A stretch of 33,522 nt of DNA from Chitinophagales bacterium (GTDB lineage: Bacteria; Bacteroidota; Bacteroidia; Chitinophagales; UBA10324). Below the pieces are notes generated by a model. The model was not told where the DNA came from, made no database searches, and saw only the letters and a program-made list of their open reading frames with translations. Shown piece after piece: positions 28,668-33,522 of this stretch (positions are counted from its first letter, which is position 1; each line of letters opens with the position of its first letter). The stretch lies in contig JANWXQ010000011.1 of assembly GCA_025057275.1 (NCBI GenBank), positions 1 to 33,522 on the forward strand. The letters run 5' to 3'. The position numbers and the translations under genes are program-made.

Positions 28668-29708
28668 TTAGTTCACCCCAAACGTTCCGTTGTTGACGTA
28701 GTAGTAGGAACTGGTTCCTCCGGAGTAGGTAGTCCAGTTGGTGAGGTCAAAGGAGCCGTTGCCGGCCGCTGATCCGGTGATGAGGTAGGCTTTAACGGCC
28801 TGCTGGCTGCGGTTCCAGGTAAGCTTCACATTGGGATCGCAGGTTTCCGGTCCCAGGTTGGTTTTTTGCAAAAAATGTGCTTTGCCGCTGCCATAAACTT
28901 TGGCGATGCCGTTGCCATCAATGCACACCGCCGTGTGTTCTTCACAACCGATGCCGCGGGCATTCATGTTCCAGTCTTCTACCATGCGGGCCATAAAGGT
29001 TACATGACGACCGCGGCGGTCAGGGTTGTCGTAGTGGGTGTCGGTTATGGTTTGAGTAAGAAAAGGAATGCTGATGAAATCGCTTTTTCCTAAGGTTACT
29101 TCGGTACGGTAAGGATTGTTCATGGCCTGTTGCGAAGTGACGGTGCCGTTCTTGGCTGTAAAGTAGGCTTCGCCCAAAATAGCGCAGCCGGCACTCGTAC
29201 CGCCTACAGGTACCTTCTTTACATTAATCAAATAGTTAATGGCATCTTCGGTTAATGTGTTTCGCCATTTATTGACGTAATCCCATTGGTCGCCCCCTGT
29301 GATGAAAAGGGCCTCGGCGGCAACAATTTTATTGTACACATCCTGTCGTTTGGCTTTGGATTTGGTGTCAATAATTATGGTTTCCACTGAATTGACGCCG
29401 CCCAGGTCGTAATAAATGTAATCGTTGTAGCCGTCGGATCCGGTGGCCCGCAAAACGACAAAATCCCCGCCTCCGCTGCGGCTGATCATCCATTCGAAGG
29501 CTTCATCCACATCGGCACCCCCGCCCATCAGACAGAATCCCGCCTGGGTGGGCGGGGATACGTCAGCTACGTCACCGGTGAGGTAGGTAACCAGTTTGGC
29601 AGAAACTTCAGGGTCGGTAACGGTGCTTTCCGGGATGAATTCATTCTTACTGCACGTGCAAAACAAACACAACAGCGGAGCGCCAAAGAGCAAACGAAAC
29701 ACATTCAT
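28668..29708 (-). CDS. Cyanophycinase-like peptidase (S51 family), probable lipoprotein
   Basis: A 346-residue S51-family protein. Relatives cleave the Asp-Arg polymer cyanophycin or N-terminal aspartyl dipeptides. The N-terminus is a signal peptide with a cysteine cluster (L-L-C-L-F-C-T-C-S), compatible with lipid attachment, although the lipobox is not ideal. The catalytic part shows C-L-M-G-G-G-A-D-V-D (about 57-66), F-I-T-G-G-D-Q (about 136), the nucleophile G-G-T-S-A-G with Ser172, and D-T-H-Y-x-x-P-D-R-R-G-R-H containing the histidine region. The C-terminal 60 residues are Thr/Ser/Gly rich and outside the family core. Cyanophycin itself is not shown to be the substrate. It begins 39 bases after the glycosyltransferase fusion. 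Confidence 0.85.
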   Translation of the reverse strand: MNVFRLLFGAPLLCLFCTCSKNEFIPESTVTDPEVSAKLVTYLTGDVADVSPPTQAGFCLMGGGADVDEAFEWMISRSGGGDFVVLRATGSDGYNDYIYYDLGGVNSVETIIIDTKSKAKRQDVYNKIVAAEALFITGGDQWDYVNKWRNTLTEDAINYLINVKKVPVGGTSAGCAILGEAYFTAKNGTVTSQQAMNNPYRTEVTLGKSDFISIPFLTQTITDTHYDNPDRRGRHVTFMARMVEDWNMNARGIGCEEHTAVCIDGNGIAKVYGSGKAHFLQKTNLGPETCDPNVKLTWNRSQQAVKAYLITGSAAGNGSFDLTNWTTYSGGTSSYYYVNNGTFGVN

Positions 29709-29747: not shown

Positions 29748-32591
29748 CTACCGGCTTAGCTGACGGTACAGATTCATGTAGCGTTGGGCGGCCTGGGCAT
29801 CACCGGCCTGTTCATAAATCAGAGCGAGCAGATAATACGGCTGGGGGTCATACGGATTCAACGATGACGCTTTTTGCAAATACGAAACGGCCTGCTGTAT
29901 GTTGCCGGAAGCCGCAGCGGCTGAGCCGGCTGTGAGAAACCCATAAGATGAATTCGGAAACAGCTGCAGGTAGTGTTGAGCGGCCTTCAGAGCGTCGCCG
30001 TAACGACCCGTTTGCAGATAGGTTTGCGCCAGCCACAGAGCGGCATCTTCGTTTTGCGGATTTTCTTTAATTGCCTGCTCAAGGTAGCTTGCTGCCAGAC
30101 TCCAGTTTTTCTGCTGCATGGCTTCGTAGCCGTGCCAATCGGCTTTGCTGCCGCGTGCCACCACGGCCGATAAGGGAACGCCATCTGCCGCATTGATGAA
30201 GACGGCTTGCCTGGAGGGCCAGGTTCCGGCCTGCAACTGGGAGGCATCTACATCGCGGGAGAAAAAGATGCCCACATCCCAGTTGCGGGCGCCTCGGGTT
30301 TTGGGATTACCCGGAGCATGCCATTTGGTGAAAACGATTTGTACGCGATCGGTATCGTTCCGGAAGTACCAGTTTACCGGATCCACAGCATTGGTGGCAA
30401 TCAGCAGCTTGTTTTGCGGACCGGCTTCTTCAACGTATTGGCTTTGACGTAACCAGTCGCAGGTTTTGCGGATGCTGTTCATGTAGTAATCGGTATCGTA
30501 CCGGCCGTAAGCACCCCGGATGCCTCCGATCAGTTCATTGAAATAGACATACTGATTCGGATGGTTGGCTACAGAAAACCGTAAAGGCAAAAACAAGCCG
30601 GCCAGCAATAGAGCAGTAATTGCAATACGCCAGGCCGGCCTGGGTGATGCCCGCAGCACCATCTGCCACGATAAAGCGGCAAAAACAGCAATCAGTGGTA
30701 GCAGAAAAAGCATCTGGCGCAGCCCGTCGTAAAGGGCAGAGCTTTTGTACACCGTGTAAGCCCAGGGAAAAATCAAGGCAAAGGCCAGCAGCAACAATAG
30801 TGATCGTGAGATGCCTGAGCGGAAAAACAGAAGCGGTGACAGCAGCAAACCTGCAAGAACGACCAGCGGAGTAGTGATGCCGATCCACTTGGGGATGTAA
30901 TACCATGGCACCTGATCGCTCATCAGGTGTTGCCCTTCAAAAAGGATGCGAATGCCCATGCTGAAGTTGGTCATTTCGCGCAGGGCAATGAACGGATGCT
31001 CCAGGGGATCGAGCAGACCATATGGCCAGAACAACAGCCCGCCGAAATAGGCCAGAACCGAAACGATCAGCAACTGAACGGCCAGCGACTGTTTCGCTTT
31101 AAAGGCGTGAAGAGCCCTGCGCACTTCAGGCTGCAGCAGGTAGGCGCCACCGGCAAAGGCGAACATCATGCCGATAAGCATCAGGCCGCCGACGCGGATG
31201 TTGATGGTAAAGGCTATGGCCATCGTGAGCAAGGTCCAGGTACGCAGCGTTACCCGGGGCAGTTCCTGAACCATTTTCACCAGATAATACACAGAGGCCA
31301 CATAGCCCAGGGCAAAAGGGATGTCTTTGGGATTGTTCATGGATTGCCCGAAGAATTGCGGCCAGGTAGCCAACAACACCAGAGCCAGAACGGCAGCCAG
31401 CCAGCCGCCCAGCCGACGGGCCAACAGCCCGGTAACCACCACAGCGGCCCAGCCGGTGAGGGAATTGATCAGATGCCGCATGTCGTATTCGTCCAATCCG
31501 CCGATGTAGCGGTTTGCGGCAGCAGAAATCATATTAAATAAACCTCCATACAAATAGAGGTTGTCTTTATTGCCCACCTTCACGTGCAGGCAGGAGGTAT
31601 CGCGGCCCAGCGAAGTATAAAAGTCAAGTACGGCTTCACCATAGATTTTCTGATCCAGGTCGTCGCCGGTGATGCCGTAATCAAAGCTCAGGGTAGCCAT
31701 GAGTATCAGCAGCAGGAAGCTCAGGGCAAAAAAGATCAGCCGGAAAGGTGCCTGCTGCGGTTGCGCCGATTCCGGCATGGGCTGACCACGGAGCAATCGC
31801 AGGGGGTCAGCTACAAAATACTCCCATCGCATCCGCAGCGTGATGGCCAGCAGGGAGCCGAGCATGGGGAACATGTGGCGCCACACGGAAATTTTACTGC
31901 CCGGAACAGCCTGCCATTGCAGGGGCAGCTCGGTAATGGGGAAGCCGTACTGCCGGGCACGAAGTAGCAACTCGATGTCGTGGGCCCAGCCGCTGTTGCG
32001 CAGCCGGGAAAAAAGGATTTTTCCCCGGGTGGCAGGGTAGAGTTTGAAGCCGCATTGCGTGTCGCGCAGGGGCAGGGCAGTGATCAGGCGGATGAGCAGA
32101 TTGAAGATGCGGCCGGCAAAACGGCGTCCGCTGCTGTCGGTTACGCGCGACTCCTTGTGCTCGCGCGAGCCGATGAGGATTTCTTCCTGCTGAAATCGCT
32201 CCGGAAATTTTTGCAGCCATTCCAATACGGTAAGCGGCGAGGCTGCCATATCGGCATCTAGTGTCAGCAGATGGGTTCCGCTGGCTTTTTCTACGCCCAG
32301 CTTTAGCCCTGCACCTTTTCCTACGTTGTGGTCCAAATGAACGTACACCAGTCGACCCTGCTGCTGTAGCCGTTGCAGCACGGCACTGTCCAATATGCGT
32401 TGATGCGTGCCGTCGGTGCTGCCATCATTGACCAGCACCACCTCAAAATCAAAAGGGGCCCGGGCAGCAAACAGGTCCAGTTCCCGTTCCAGCCGCTCCA
32501 GACGATGCGCTTCGTTGTAGCAGGGAATGATCAGGCTAAGCCTGCCCATCGTGGCCGCAGCGGGCGCAAAGGTTTTCTTTGCCTTAGCCAT
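29748..32591 (-). CDS. GT2 - GT39-like membrane glycosyltransferase - TPR fusion protein
   Basis: A 947-residue protein that joins three parts. Residues about 16-240 are a family 2 GT-A glycosyltransferase (S-L-I-I-P-C-Y-N-E, V-N-D-G-S-T-D-G-T, D-A-D-M as the metal motif near 109, and D-T-Q-C-G-F-K). Residues about 285-700 are a many-helix GT-C region of the family 39 (mannosyltransferase-like) type, with T-G-D-D-L-D near 307 as the likely catalytic acidic motif at the first periplasmic loop. Residues about 820-947 are tetratricopeptide repeats, roughly four. A natural reading is that the first domain makes a polyprenyl-phosphate sugar and the second transfers it to a periplasmic acceptor, perhaps with the TPR part binding it; this is inference. 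Its ATG overlaps the rfaE1 stop by 8 bases. Confidence 0.9.
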   Translation of the reverse strand: MAKAKKTFAPAAATMGRLSLIIPCYNEAHRLERLERELDLFAARAPFDFEVVLVNDGSTDGTHQRILDSAVLQRLQQQGRLVYVHLDHNVGKGAGLKLGVEKASGTHLLTLDADMAASPLTVLEWLQKFPERFQQEEILIGSREHKESRVTDSSGRRFAGRIFNLLIRLITALPLRDTQCGFKLYPATRGKILFSRLRNSGWAHDIELLLRARQYGFPITELPLQWQAVPGSKISVWRHMFPMLGSLLAITLRMRWEYFVADPLRLLRGQPMPESAQPQQAPFRLIFFALSFLLLILMATLSFDYGITGDDLDQKIYGEAVLDFYTSLGRDTSCLHVKVGNKDNLYLYGGLFNMISAAANRYIGGLDEYDMRHLINSLTGWAAVVVTGLLARRLGGWLAAVLALVLLATWPQFFGQSMNNPKDIPFALGYVASVYYLVKMVQELPRVTLRTWTLLTMAIAFTINIRVGGLMLIGMMFAFAGGAYLLQPEVRRALHAFKAKQSLAVQLLIVSVLAYFGGLLFWPYGLLDPLEHPFIALREMTNFSMGIRILFEGQHLMSDQVPWYYIPKWIGITTPLVVLAGLLLSPLLFFRSGISRSLLLLLAFALIFPWAYTVYKSSALYDGLRQMLFLLPLIAVFAALSWQMVLRASPRPAWRIAITALLLAGLFLPLRFSVANHPNQYVYFNELIGGIRGAYGRYDTDYYMNSIRKTCDWLRQSQYVEEAGPQNKLLIATNAVDPVNWYFRNDTDRVQIVFTKWHAPGNPKTRGARNWDVGIFFSRDVDASQLQAGTWPSRQAVFINAADGVPLSAVVARGSKADWHGYEAMQQKNWSLAASYLEQAIKENPQNEDAALWLAQTYLQTGRYGDALKAAQHYLQLFPNSSYGFLTAGSAAAASGNIQQAVSYLQKASSLNPYDPQPYYLLALIYEQAGDAQAAQRYMNLYRQLSR

Positions 32592-33522
32592 TCAACGATT
32601 GGTTACTCAACGCCTGCTCCAACATGTCCCACGTGATGGGCACCACACCGGCATGTTCGCAAACCAGTCCGCCGCACAGGTTGGCCAGTTGAGCGGCCTG
32701 GGGCAACAGCAAGCCTGAGGCCAGAGCCAGCGTGGCTGTGGCGATGACCGTATCGCCGGCACCGGATACATCGGCTACGTCGCGCGGATGAGCGGGAATC
32801 CAATCGGCCTGCCGGCCGTCGGCATAAAAGATGCCGCGTTCCGCAAGAGTGAGCAGGGTTATGCCGTGGTGCAGTCTCCGGCGAAGCAGGCGGTGAATGC
32901 GGAGCAGACCATCGCGGGTCAGGGGCGGTTCATCCAGCGACAAGGCTTCGCGGACTTCGCGCAGATTGGGCTTAAAAACAGATACTTTCTTATAGGTAAA
33001 AAAGTTACTTCGTTTGGGATCAACGGCAGTGAGGATGTTTGCTTTTCTGCAGTAGTCCACCAGATGGTTGATCACGTTGGCGGTAAGCAGGCCTTTGTTG
33101 TAGTCCTGAAAGATCAAAGCCTCCGGCCGGAAGGCCCGCAGGGAGTTGAGGAATTGCCGGATCAGCCGTTTTTCCACTGCTGGAGAAGGGCTTTTGACGG
33201 ATTCCTGATCGCAACGCAGCATCTGATGGTTGCGCGCCATCAGCCGGGTTTTAATGGCTGTGGCGTAAGCAGGGTCACGGAACAAAACCACCTCCCTGAT
33301 GCCATGGTTGCGAAGCAGGTGATGCAGATGATCTGCTGCCTCATCGGCACCCACCCGGCCGCCCAACCAGACGCGGGCGCCCAGCGACTGCAGGTTGACG
33401 GCAACATTGGCGGCTCCGCCGGCATGTTCGGTAATTTGTTCGACCCGCAAAACAGGAACAGGAGCCTCAGGGGAAATGCGGTCCACGCTGCCAATCAGGT
33501 AGCGGTCCAGCATCACGTCGCC
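32584..33522 (-). CDS. rfaE1: D-glycero-beta-D-manno-heptose-7-phosphate kinase (RfaE1/HldE kinase domain), 5' end missing
   Basis: This PfkB-family sugar kinase phosphorylates heptose 7-phosphate at C1 on the way to ADP-heptose, the lipopolysaccharide inner-core sugar. The visible 312 or so residues start inside the signature G-D-V-M-L-D-R-Y at the window edge, so perhaps 15-20 residues are lost. Next come R-I-S-P-E-A-P-V-P-V, G-G-A-A-N-V-A-V-N, D-P-K-R, K-P-N-L-R-E and the catalytic D-V-S-G-A-G-D-T near the C-terminus. It ends without a nucleotidyltransferase domain, so it corresponds to the separate RfaE1 type instead of the fused HldE. Overlap by 8 bases with the next gene suggests co-translation. 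Confidence 0.93.
   Translation of the reverse strand, partial: GDVMLDRYLIGSVDRISPEAPVPVLRVEQITEHAGGAANVAVNLQSLGARVWLGGRVGADEAADHLHHLLRNHGIREVVLFRDPAYATAIKTRLMARNHQMLRCDQESVKSPSPAVEKRLIRQFLNSLRAFRPEALIFQDYNKGLLTANVINHLVDYCRKANILTAVDPKRSNFFTYKKVSVFKPNLREVREALSLDEPPLTRDGLLRIHRLLRRRLHHGITLLTLAERGIFYADGRQADWIPAHPRDVADVSGAGDTVIATATLALASGLLLPQAAQLANLCGGLVCEHAGVVPITWDMLEQALSNQSLNG

Follow-up and report, generated by a model that had tools for sequence, protein, structure and literature searches.

The question raised by this locus is whether one gene in a window of 33,522 nucleotides from a Chitinophagales bacterium (the window being the whole stretch of DNA that was analyzed) encodes in a single chain the complete route proposed in the initial annotation. 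In that proposal a cytoplasmic GT2 domain loads a sugar on polyprenyl phosphate, the sugar lipid is flipped, and a GT39-like membrane domain transfers the sugar to an acceptor held by a periplasmic TPR tail.

Domain Organization of the Fusion Protein

The open reading frame starts with an ATG, contains no internal stop, and encodes 947 amino acids. Its features, with the evidence for each, are as follows:

29748..32591 (-), fusion gene, GT2 + GT-C + α/β domain + TPR (ORF, 947 amino acids)
31827..32540 (-), GT2 (GT-A fold) domain, residues 18-255, polyprenyl-phosphate sugar synthase-like (Pfam and fold match)
32250..32258 (-), DAD motif, residues 112-114 (both aspartates kept in intact fused and separate copies)
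31791..31886 (-), juxtamembrane helix 236-267, between GT2 and the membrane domain (hydropathy and AF2 model)
30564..31760 (-), GT-C membrane domain, residues 278-676, 11 assigned TM helices (hydropathy, AF2, fold match, and loop charge)
31659..31664 (-), acidic motif D310-D311, first periplasmic loop, presumed catalytic (conservation)
31323..31337 (-), NNPKD motif, residues 419-423, second periplasmic loop (N420 and D423 in 108/108)
30147..30563 (-), periplasmic α/β domain, residues 677-815 (AF2 secondary structure and conservation)
29754..30143 (-), TPR tail, residues 817-946, predicted periplasmic (Pfam, AF2, and loop charge)

Pfam places GT2 (PF00535) at residues 19-184 (7.6e-20, 72 bits against a cut-off of 23.3) and TPR families at about 820-940 (TPR_19, 3e-17), and the membrane domain gives two weak matches marginally over their curated cut-offs, PMT at residues 348-474 (27.1 bits versus 22.7) and PMT_2 at residues 377-513 (26.8 bits versus 26.1). 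The AF2 model, built with 16 aligned relatives, has a mean pLDDT of 86.8 and a pTM of 0.84, and its secondary structure comprises a GT-A domain, a helical membrane domain, a small α/β domain, and TPR helices. The fusion is composed of four parts rather than three because the α/β domain (about 690-815) sits between the last membrane helix and the TPRs.

The full-length frame is present in 13 of 16 genomes of the same family, with the window's own included (the G005 copy is cut by a contig end), and in three further genomes of the order, 40 genomes having been searched in all; two of the three same-family genomes without the fusion are less than 75% complete. A frame artefact or misjoined genes can be ruled out since the long frame recurs across many genomes. 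The annotated combination of GT2, GT39-like membrane, and TPR regions in one chain is therefore borne out by Pfam, the AF2 model, and the recurring frame; the label GT39-like is clear as a GT-C fold match but marginal by sequence. Eight intact pairs are under purifying selection, with dN/dS values of 0.04-0.14 for GT2 and 0.015-0.10 for GT-C where dS is unsaturated, these being rough values as many dS exceed 1.

The GT2 Domain

The GT2 part is closely matched by dolichyl-phosphate mannose synthase (PDB code 9ep0, Z 24.1, rmsd 2.4 Å over 217 residues) and also folds like ArnC and GtrB, the Z scores for this group being about 19-25. Both the GT-A fold and the DXD motif of the polyprenyl-phosphate sugar synthases are present, the latter as the DAD motif, which presumably functions in metal and nucleotide-sugar binding. 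Both DAD aspartates are kept in 44/44 fused rows (36 distinct loci) and in 13/13 separate GT2 copies, a retention that is partly built in because the intact-GT2 classes were defined by a profile score above 200 bits. The loading of a sugar on polyprenyl phosphate by a cytoplasmic GT2 is plausible by motif and fold.

The GT-C Membrane Domain and Its Topology

The GT-C part is matched by Pmt4 (PDB code 9i5k, Z 22.9, 374 residues, 3.5 Å), ArnT (PDB code 5f15, Z 23.7, 432 residues, 7.2 Å), and OST (PDB code 8age, Z 24.9, 452 residues, 6.8 Å), with ALG12 likewise among the structural matches. For both this part and GT2 such matches give the fold and not the substrate. The GT-C sequence profile searched against the PDB finds no GT-C protein, its single match (E 0.72) being unrelated, so the type of substrate is not readable from homology.

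As in the GT-C/GT39 (PMT) group, the GT-C fold is accompanied by an acidic residue in the first extracytoplasmic loop. Asp-310, His-373, Asn-420, Asp-423, and Arg-625 are invariant in 108/108 GT-C sequences (8 of them the same loci under a second identifier), and residue 311 is an aspartate in 20 and a glutamate in 88. The acidic motif, the loss of which from most relatives would have spoken against the initial annotation, is thus retained in every sequence.

Hydropathy over the family alignment gives twelve candidate segments, the weakest of which (234-252, mean 1.26) overlaps the 236-267 helix and is taken as juxtamembrane, leaving eleven TM helices in agreement with the helices of the AF2 model (278-676). 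Taking the GT2 side as cytoplasmic and the helices as eleven, the tail is predicted to be periplasmic. The K+R fraction is 0.192 in the predicted cytoplasmic loops versus 0.079 in the predicted periplasmic ones, with the same direction in 108/108 sequences independently of the 236-267 helix; a wrong call on this helix would shift the GT2 domain, leaving the placement of the tail unchanged. Hydropathy, model, and charge bias therefore agree on the periplasmic TPR tail of the initial annotation, for which a cytoplasmic placement would have been fatal. In the α/β domain that precedes this tail Asn-685, Asp-701, and Tyr-702 are found in 106 of the 108 sequences (2 gaps), and the tail itself (817-946) is composed of eight helices in the AF2 secondary structure.

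Fused, Adjacent, and Unpaired Forms

Relatives were taken from a profile search of genome contigs as the best 80 of at least 538 confirmed places, and because of this choice the sample leans to near relatives. The initial annotation had called for a survey of how often the parts occur as one gene or as neighbors. Within these best 80 of at least 538, the pairing is upheld by 28 relatives with an intact fused GT2 and by 13 in which the gene immediately upstream encodes a GT2 of the same subfamily, whereas 21 have no GT2 of this kind adjacent and 13 carry a fused but decayed GT2; the remaining 5 are cut at the 5′ end. The classes with a decayed or no adjacent GT2 indicate that GT-C has no strict need of this GT2 partner. 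Of the 13 upstream loci, 11 have a gap of 5-12 nt between the genes and the other 2 an 11-nt overlap, taking the first start codon of the frame as the start.

TPRs (E 0.01, commonest TPR model) are found in 27/27 of the fused relatives (27 of 28, one being cut), in 14/14 of the decayed (the 13 plus L018), and in 30/32 of those with GT2 separate or GT-C alone (32 of 34, two being cut). These tallies use Pfam models; a home-made TPR profile undercounted the repeats. The presence of TPRs in nearly all the proteins scanned, whatever their class, means that the TPR-tailed GT-C is the constant unit and GT2 the variable part. An even draw from the order shows GT-C in 92 of 248 genomes at E 1e-60, and a frame of more than 880 amino acids in 20 of those 92 suggests fusion but not intactness of GT2, as the decayed G026 is among them. 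The corresponding phylum draw gives 7 of 296 genomes at E 1e-40.

The GT-C tree contains 96 proteins (12 of the 108 were omitted as cut or duplicate) and was made by a quick method with SH-aLRT support only and several long branches. Fused and separate rows group together with four decayed rows and one GT-C-alone row (L060) with a support of 89. The decayed L081 groups with the intact L087 and L116 (support 99), so that decay starting from an intact fusion is well placed at least once; deeper decayed rows stand on long branches. The tree also bears on the idea that GT2 feeds a pool of polyprenyl-phosphate sugar to other GT-C enzymes, with the fusion a matter of mere co-inheritance. The window genome does hold two other genes with a match to the TMTC segment DUF1736, one over the cut-off and the other with TPRs, but the pairing recurs as directly adjacent genes in another clade, and we regard this explanation as quite improbable.

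Two records among the loci are unusual in themselves. L127:3-4073 carries two GT-C genes of this family in tandem, each cut by a contig end, and the GT-C of L093, a record named Azovibrio restrictus, is nearly identical to that of the Bacteroidetes record L106, so that the name is probably a binning or labelling error.

Decayed GT2 Domains

The decayed relatives raise the alternative that the fused GT2 serves GT-C chiefly as a structural or regulatory partner, its own catalysis being dispensable. In 14 relatives an N-terminal domain of 221-317 amino acids persists with the motif set absent, as would be expected of such a partner, whereas the window's own clade has the full motif intact under strong purifying selection. 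One or both DAD aspartates are lost in 13 of the 14 copies; L119 keeps both in this alignment with other motif residues missing. The ancestry of the domain is recognizable in 8/14, for which hhalign finds the GT2 profile with E values no higher than 4e-6 and probabilities of 87-99.9%; these add to the structural case. By BLAST, L103 and L120 link to L099 and L122 links to L120, whereas the only link of L115 and L118 is with one another and L119 has none.

For L118, which has no sequence link to GT2, the predicted domain is GT-A-like with middling confidence (pLDDT 70.7, pTM 0.65). Its ten best Foldseek matches are to ArnC, GtrB, and DPMS (E 6.5e-5 to 5.8e-4), and VIA ranks glucosyl-3-phosphoglycerate synthase first (PDB code 7p5l, Z 10.6, 187 residues, 4.6 Å) with GtrB at Z 9.7. 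Nucleotidyltransferases such as IspDF reach Z 9.5, however, and the leading Z of 10.6 is little higher than the 7-8 that the tool describes as common. Because IspDF also matches, the model supports a nucleotide-sugar-type fold and is not proof of descent from GT2; built on 13 very diverged rows, some of recognizable GT2 ancestry, it may lean towards GT-A. L118 thus lends something to the structural explanation, tempered by the middling confidence and by the other nucleotide-binding folds among the matches.

Selection on the decayed domains can likewise be read in both directions. In three pairs their dN/dS is 0.18, 0.46, and 0.17 versus 0.054, 0.075, and 0.041 for GT-C of the same pairs (dS exceeds 2 in the third, and a fourth pair is saturated). 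The values are raised yet below 1, so constraint is weakened and seemingly not absent, which suits a structural role; relative to the GT-C part, however, constraint is 3 to 6 times weaker in the decayed copies, compared with 0.9 to 2.5 times in intact pairs. At two decayed loci, L099 and L124, a further GT2 gene whose DXD is intact lies 25 and 11 nt away, so the change may be no more than a relocation of catalysis. Taking the two sides together, a mainly structural GT2 appears rather unlikely. In 25 genomes with a decayed or no adjacent GT2 the subfamily profile finds no GT2 above 123.2 bits besides the decayed domains (the window's scores 357; several of the assemblies are incomplete). The decayed form is also carried by a named species, Saprospira grandis, whose record is titled a complete sequence, and no description of decayed versions was found in the open-access literature searched.

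Gene Neighborhood and the Nature of the Acceptor

Two kinds of gene neighbor are considered here, the second of them in relatives:

32584..33522 (-), running beyond the window end, rfaE1-like heptose-7-phosphate kinase (full gene 313.8 bits versus a curated cut-off of 345)
L033:11571-12305, and likewise 33 further loci, a family of small methyltransferases accompanying GT2 and GT-C where these are fused or adjacent

The rfaE1 stop (32586-32584) and the fusion ATG (32591-32589) produce an overlap of 8 nt, which is present in the window and in L051. Of 12 loci in the window's family, 11 have rfaE1 no more than about 5 kb away (the twelfth contig is short) and only 5 have it directly beside the fusion, and none is found in the examined flanks of the Saprospiraceae fused loci. 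The association is local, which rules out rfaE1 as a general partner, and although the annotated overlap is real the tie to envelope glycan synthesis drawn from it is weak.

These observations bear on whether GT-C might instead transfer the sugar to a lipid or glycan, such as LPS core or a surface polysaccharide, with the TPR tail binding other envelope machinery. The overlap in the window genus and the proximity of rfaE1 across the family are consistent with such an acceptor, as are the structural matches to ArnT and ALG12, the acceptors of which are glycolipids. That rfaE1 is not found in the examined flanks of the Saprospiraceae fused loci argues against it, and the near-universal TPR tail fits protein binding, making a lipid or glycan acceptor possible but on the unlikely side.

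Just past the window, on contig C74 of the same genome (G000; L031:12739-15615), are hddA-, gmhA-, and hddC-gmhB-like genes for GDP-D-glycero-D-manno-heptose. None reaches its curated NCBI cut-off; for hddA, solved heptose kinases are matched at 1.7e-118. Among the loci examined, GDP-heptose genes lie near the fusion in the window genus only, and GDP-heptose could conceivably serve as the donor.

A class I methyltransferase is located within five genes of GT-C in 34/93 loci, many of which have short flanks. By class it is found in 24/36 fused, 7/13 separate, 2/5 cut, 1/14 decayed, and 0/25 alone loci, and the single decayed case (L081) is by eye a different subfamily, apparently pulled in by clustering. 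It is on the same strand and after most fused genes, and is divergent and two genes ahead of GT-C in the separate class; the link therefore survives rearrangement, although the counts ignore kinship. At E 0.001 a search of 18 genomes finds no match in the window genome, in its sister, or in 6 others, and of the 10 genomes that do match, 8 do so weakly. A different methyltransferase is directly upstream of GT-C-TPR genes with no adjacent GT2 in L076, L078, L083, L085, L094, L101, and L112. On the other side of the fusion, 39 nt downstream, the window encodes a cyanophycinase-like S51 peptidase (28668-29708) with an apparent lipoprotein signal by eye.

Proposed Mechanism

We conclude that the fusion is most likely an envelope glycosyltransferase that carries out two steps within a single chain, a predicted function to which we give a probability of about 0.6; its domains, motifs, predicted topology, conservation, and fusion or gene coupling form the computed basis. 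The cytoplasmic GT2 domain would make a polyprenyl-monophosphate sugar, as its fold and motifs suggest. A separate flippase would then turn the sugar lipid over, no such part being visible in the chain, and GT-C, its presumed catalytic acids being Asp-310 and Asp-311 of the first periplasmic loop, would move the sugar to a periplasmic acceptor recruited by the TPR tail. A protein is the likelier acceptor, ahead of a lipid or glycan, judging by the use of TPRs and by analogy with the TMTC proteins. Either fusion or close coupling of the genes would keep donor supply in step with donor use.

Of the complete route first annotated, motif and fold make the loading and transfer steps plausible, but flipping within the chain is not supported. 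No flippase domain is seen in the fusion, and GtrA (PF04138), the only flippase family searched, has no match in the window genome or its genus sister (G001), although 12/25 genomes searched have one. Relative to the three-component GtrA/GtrB/GtrC arrangement, the coupled GT2 synthase and GT-C transferase are therefore recognized, as sequence signatures only, and the GtrA-type flippase is missing from these two genomes. A bolder and doubtful proposal is that the fusion would glycosylate bacterial proteins as an O-glycosyltransferase, channelling the donor from synthesis to transfer within a single chain and using the TPRs as a substrate arm. In some lineages the fused GT2 would then be a dead GT-A domain that still docks on GT-C and controls donor supply, a bacterial pseudo-glycosyltransferase.

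Comparison with Known Systems

Dolichyl-phosphate mannose synthase, ArnC, and GtrB share the GT-A fold and DXD motif of the GT2 domain, which differs in being carried on a GT-C protein. In Ppm1 of Mycobacterium tuberculosis a GT2 is fused to a membrane acyltransferase, so that a polyprenyl-phosphate-mannose synthase is similarly joined to a large membrane enzyme, but the partner is Lnt and not a GT-C. No GT2-GT-C-TPR fusion was found described in the titles and abstract openings of the open-access literature searched; its parts are familiar, and the joined form is what lacks a description there.

TMTC1-4 are animal O-mannosyltransferases with an 11-TM GT-C and luminal TPRs, and the available portion of the source mentions full-length prokaryotic homologues (PMC7801869). 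The fusion resembles them in its eleven TM helices, the acidic motif in the first luminal loop, and the non-cytoplasmic TPR tail that follows, by prediction here, and differs in having a GT2 domain, none being described for TMTCs in that portion (PMC7801869). It also has no DUF1736 (PF08409) match at E 0.001, which rules out TMTC membership. DUF1736 is found in other genes of 20/25 genomes at E 0.001, 15 of them over the cut-off. About 10.5 kb from the fusion, L031:17071-18930 encodes a TPR protein of 619 amino acids with a sub-threshold DUF1736 (20.4 bits, cut-off 27).

The three- and four-component glycosylation systems (GacI/GacJ/GacK/GacL) combine a GT2 synthase, a flippase, and a GT-C, and natural GacJ-GacI fusions that join the synthase to a small membrane partner are noted in the available part of the source (PMC10821137). 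Common to these systems and the fusion are a cytoplasmic polyprenyl-phosphate sugar synthase and an extracytoplasmic GT-C user (PMC10821137, as far as the available part describes). The fusion differs in linking its synthase directly to the transferase, in carrying a TPR tail, and in having no identified flippase.

The pairing of a polyprenyl-phosphate sugar synthase with its acceptor enzyme is usually guessed from gene neighbors, and the fusion ties a likely synthase to a defined GT-C, offering a bacterial counterpart of the TMTC-type transferases with donor supply attached. The natural series of fused, adjacent, decayed, and non-adjacent forms lets one ask what GT2 does for GT-C. From the available parts of these sources, the nearest described architecture is that of TMTC and the nearest pathway logic that of three- and four-component glycosylation, and by analogy the fusion would combine the work of a dolichyl-phosphate-mannose synthase with that of a TMTC-like transferase, while lacking the TMTC marker domain.
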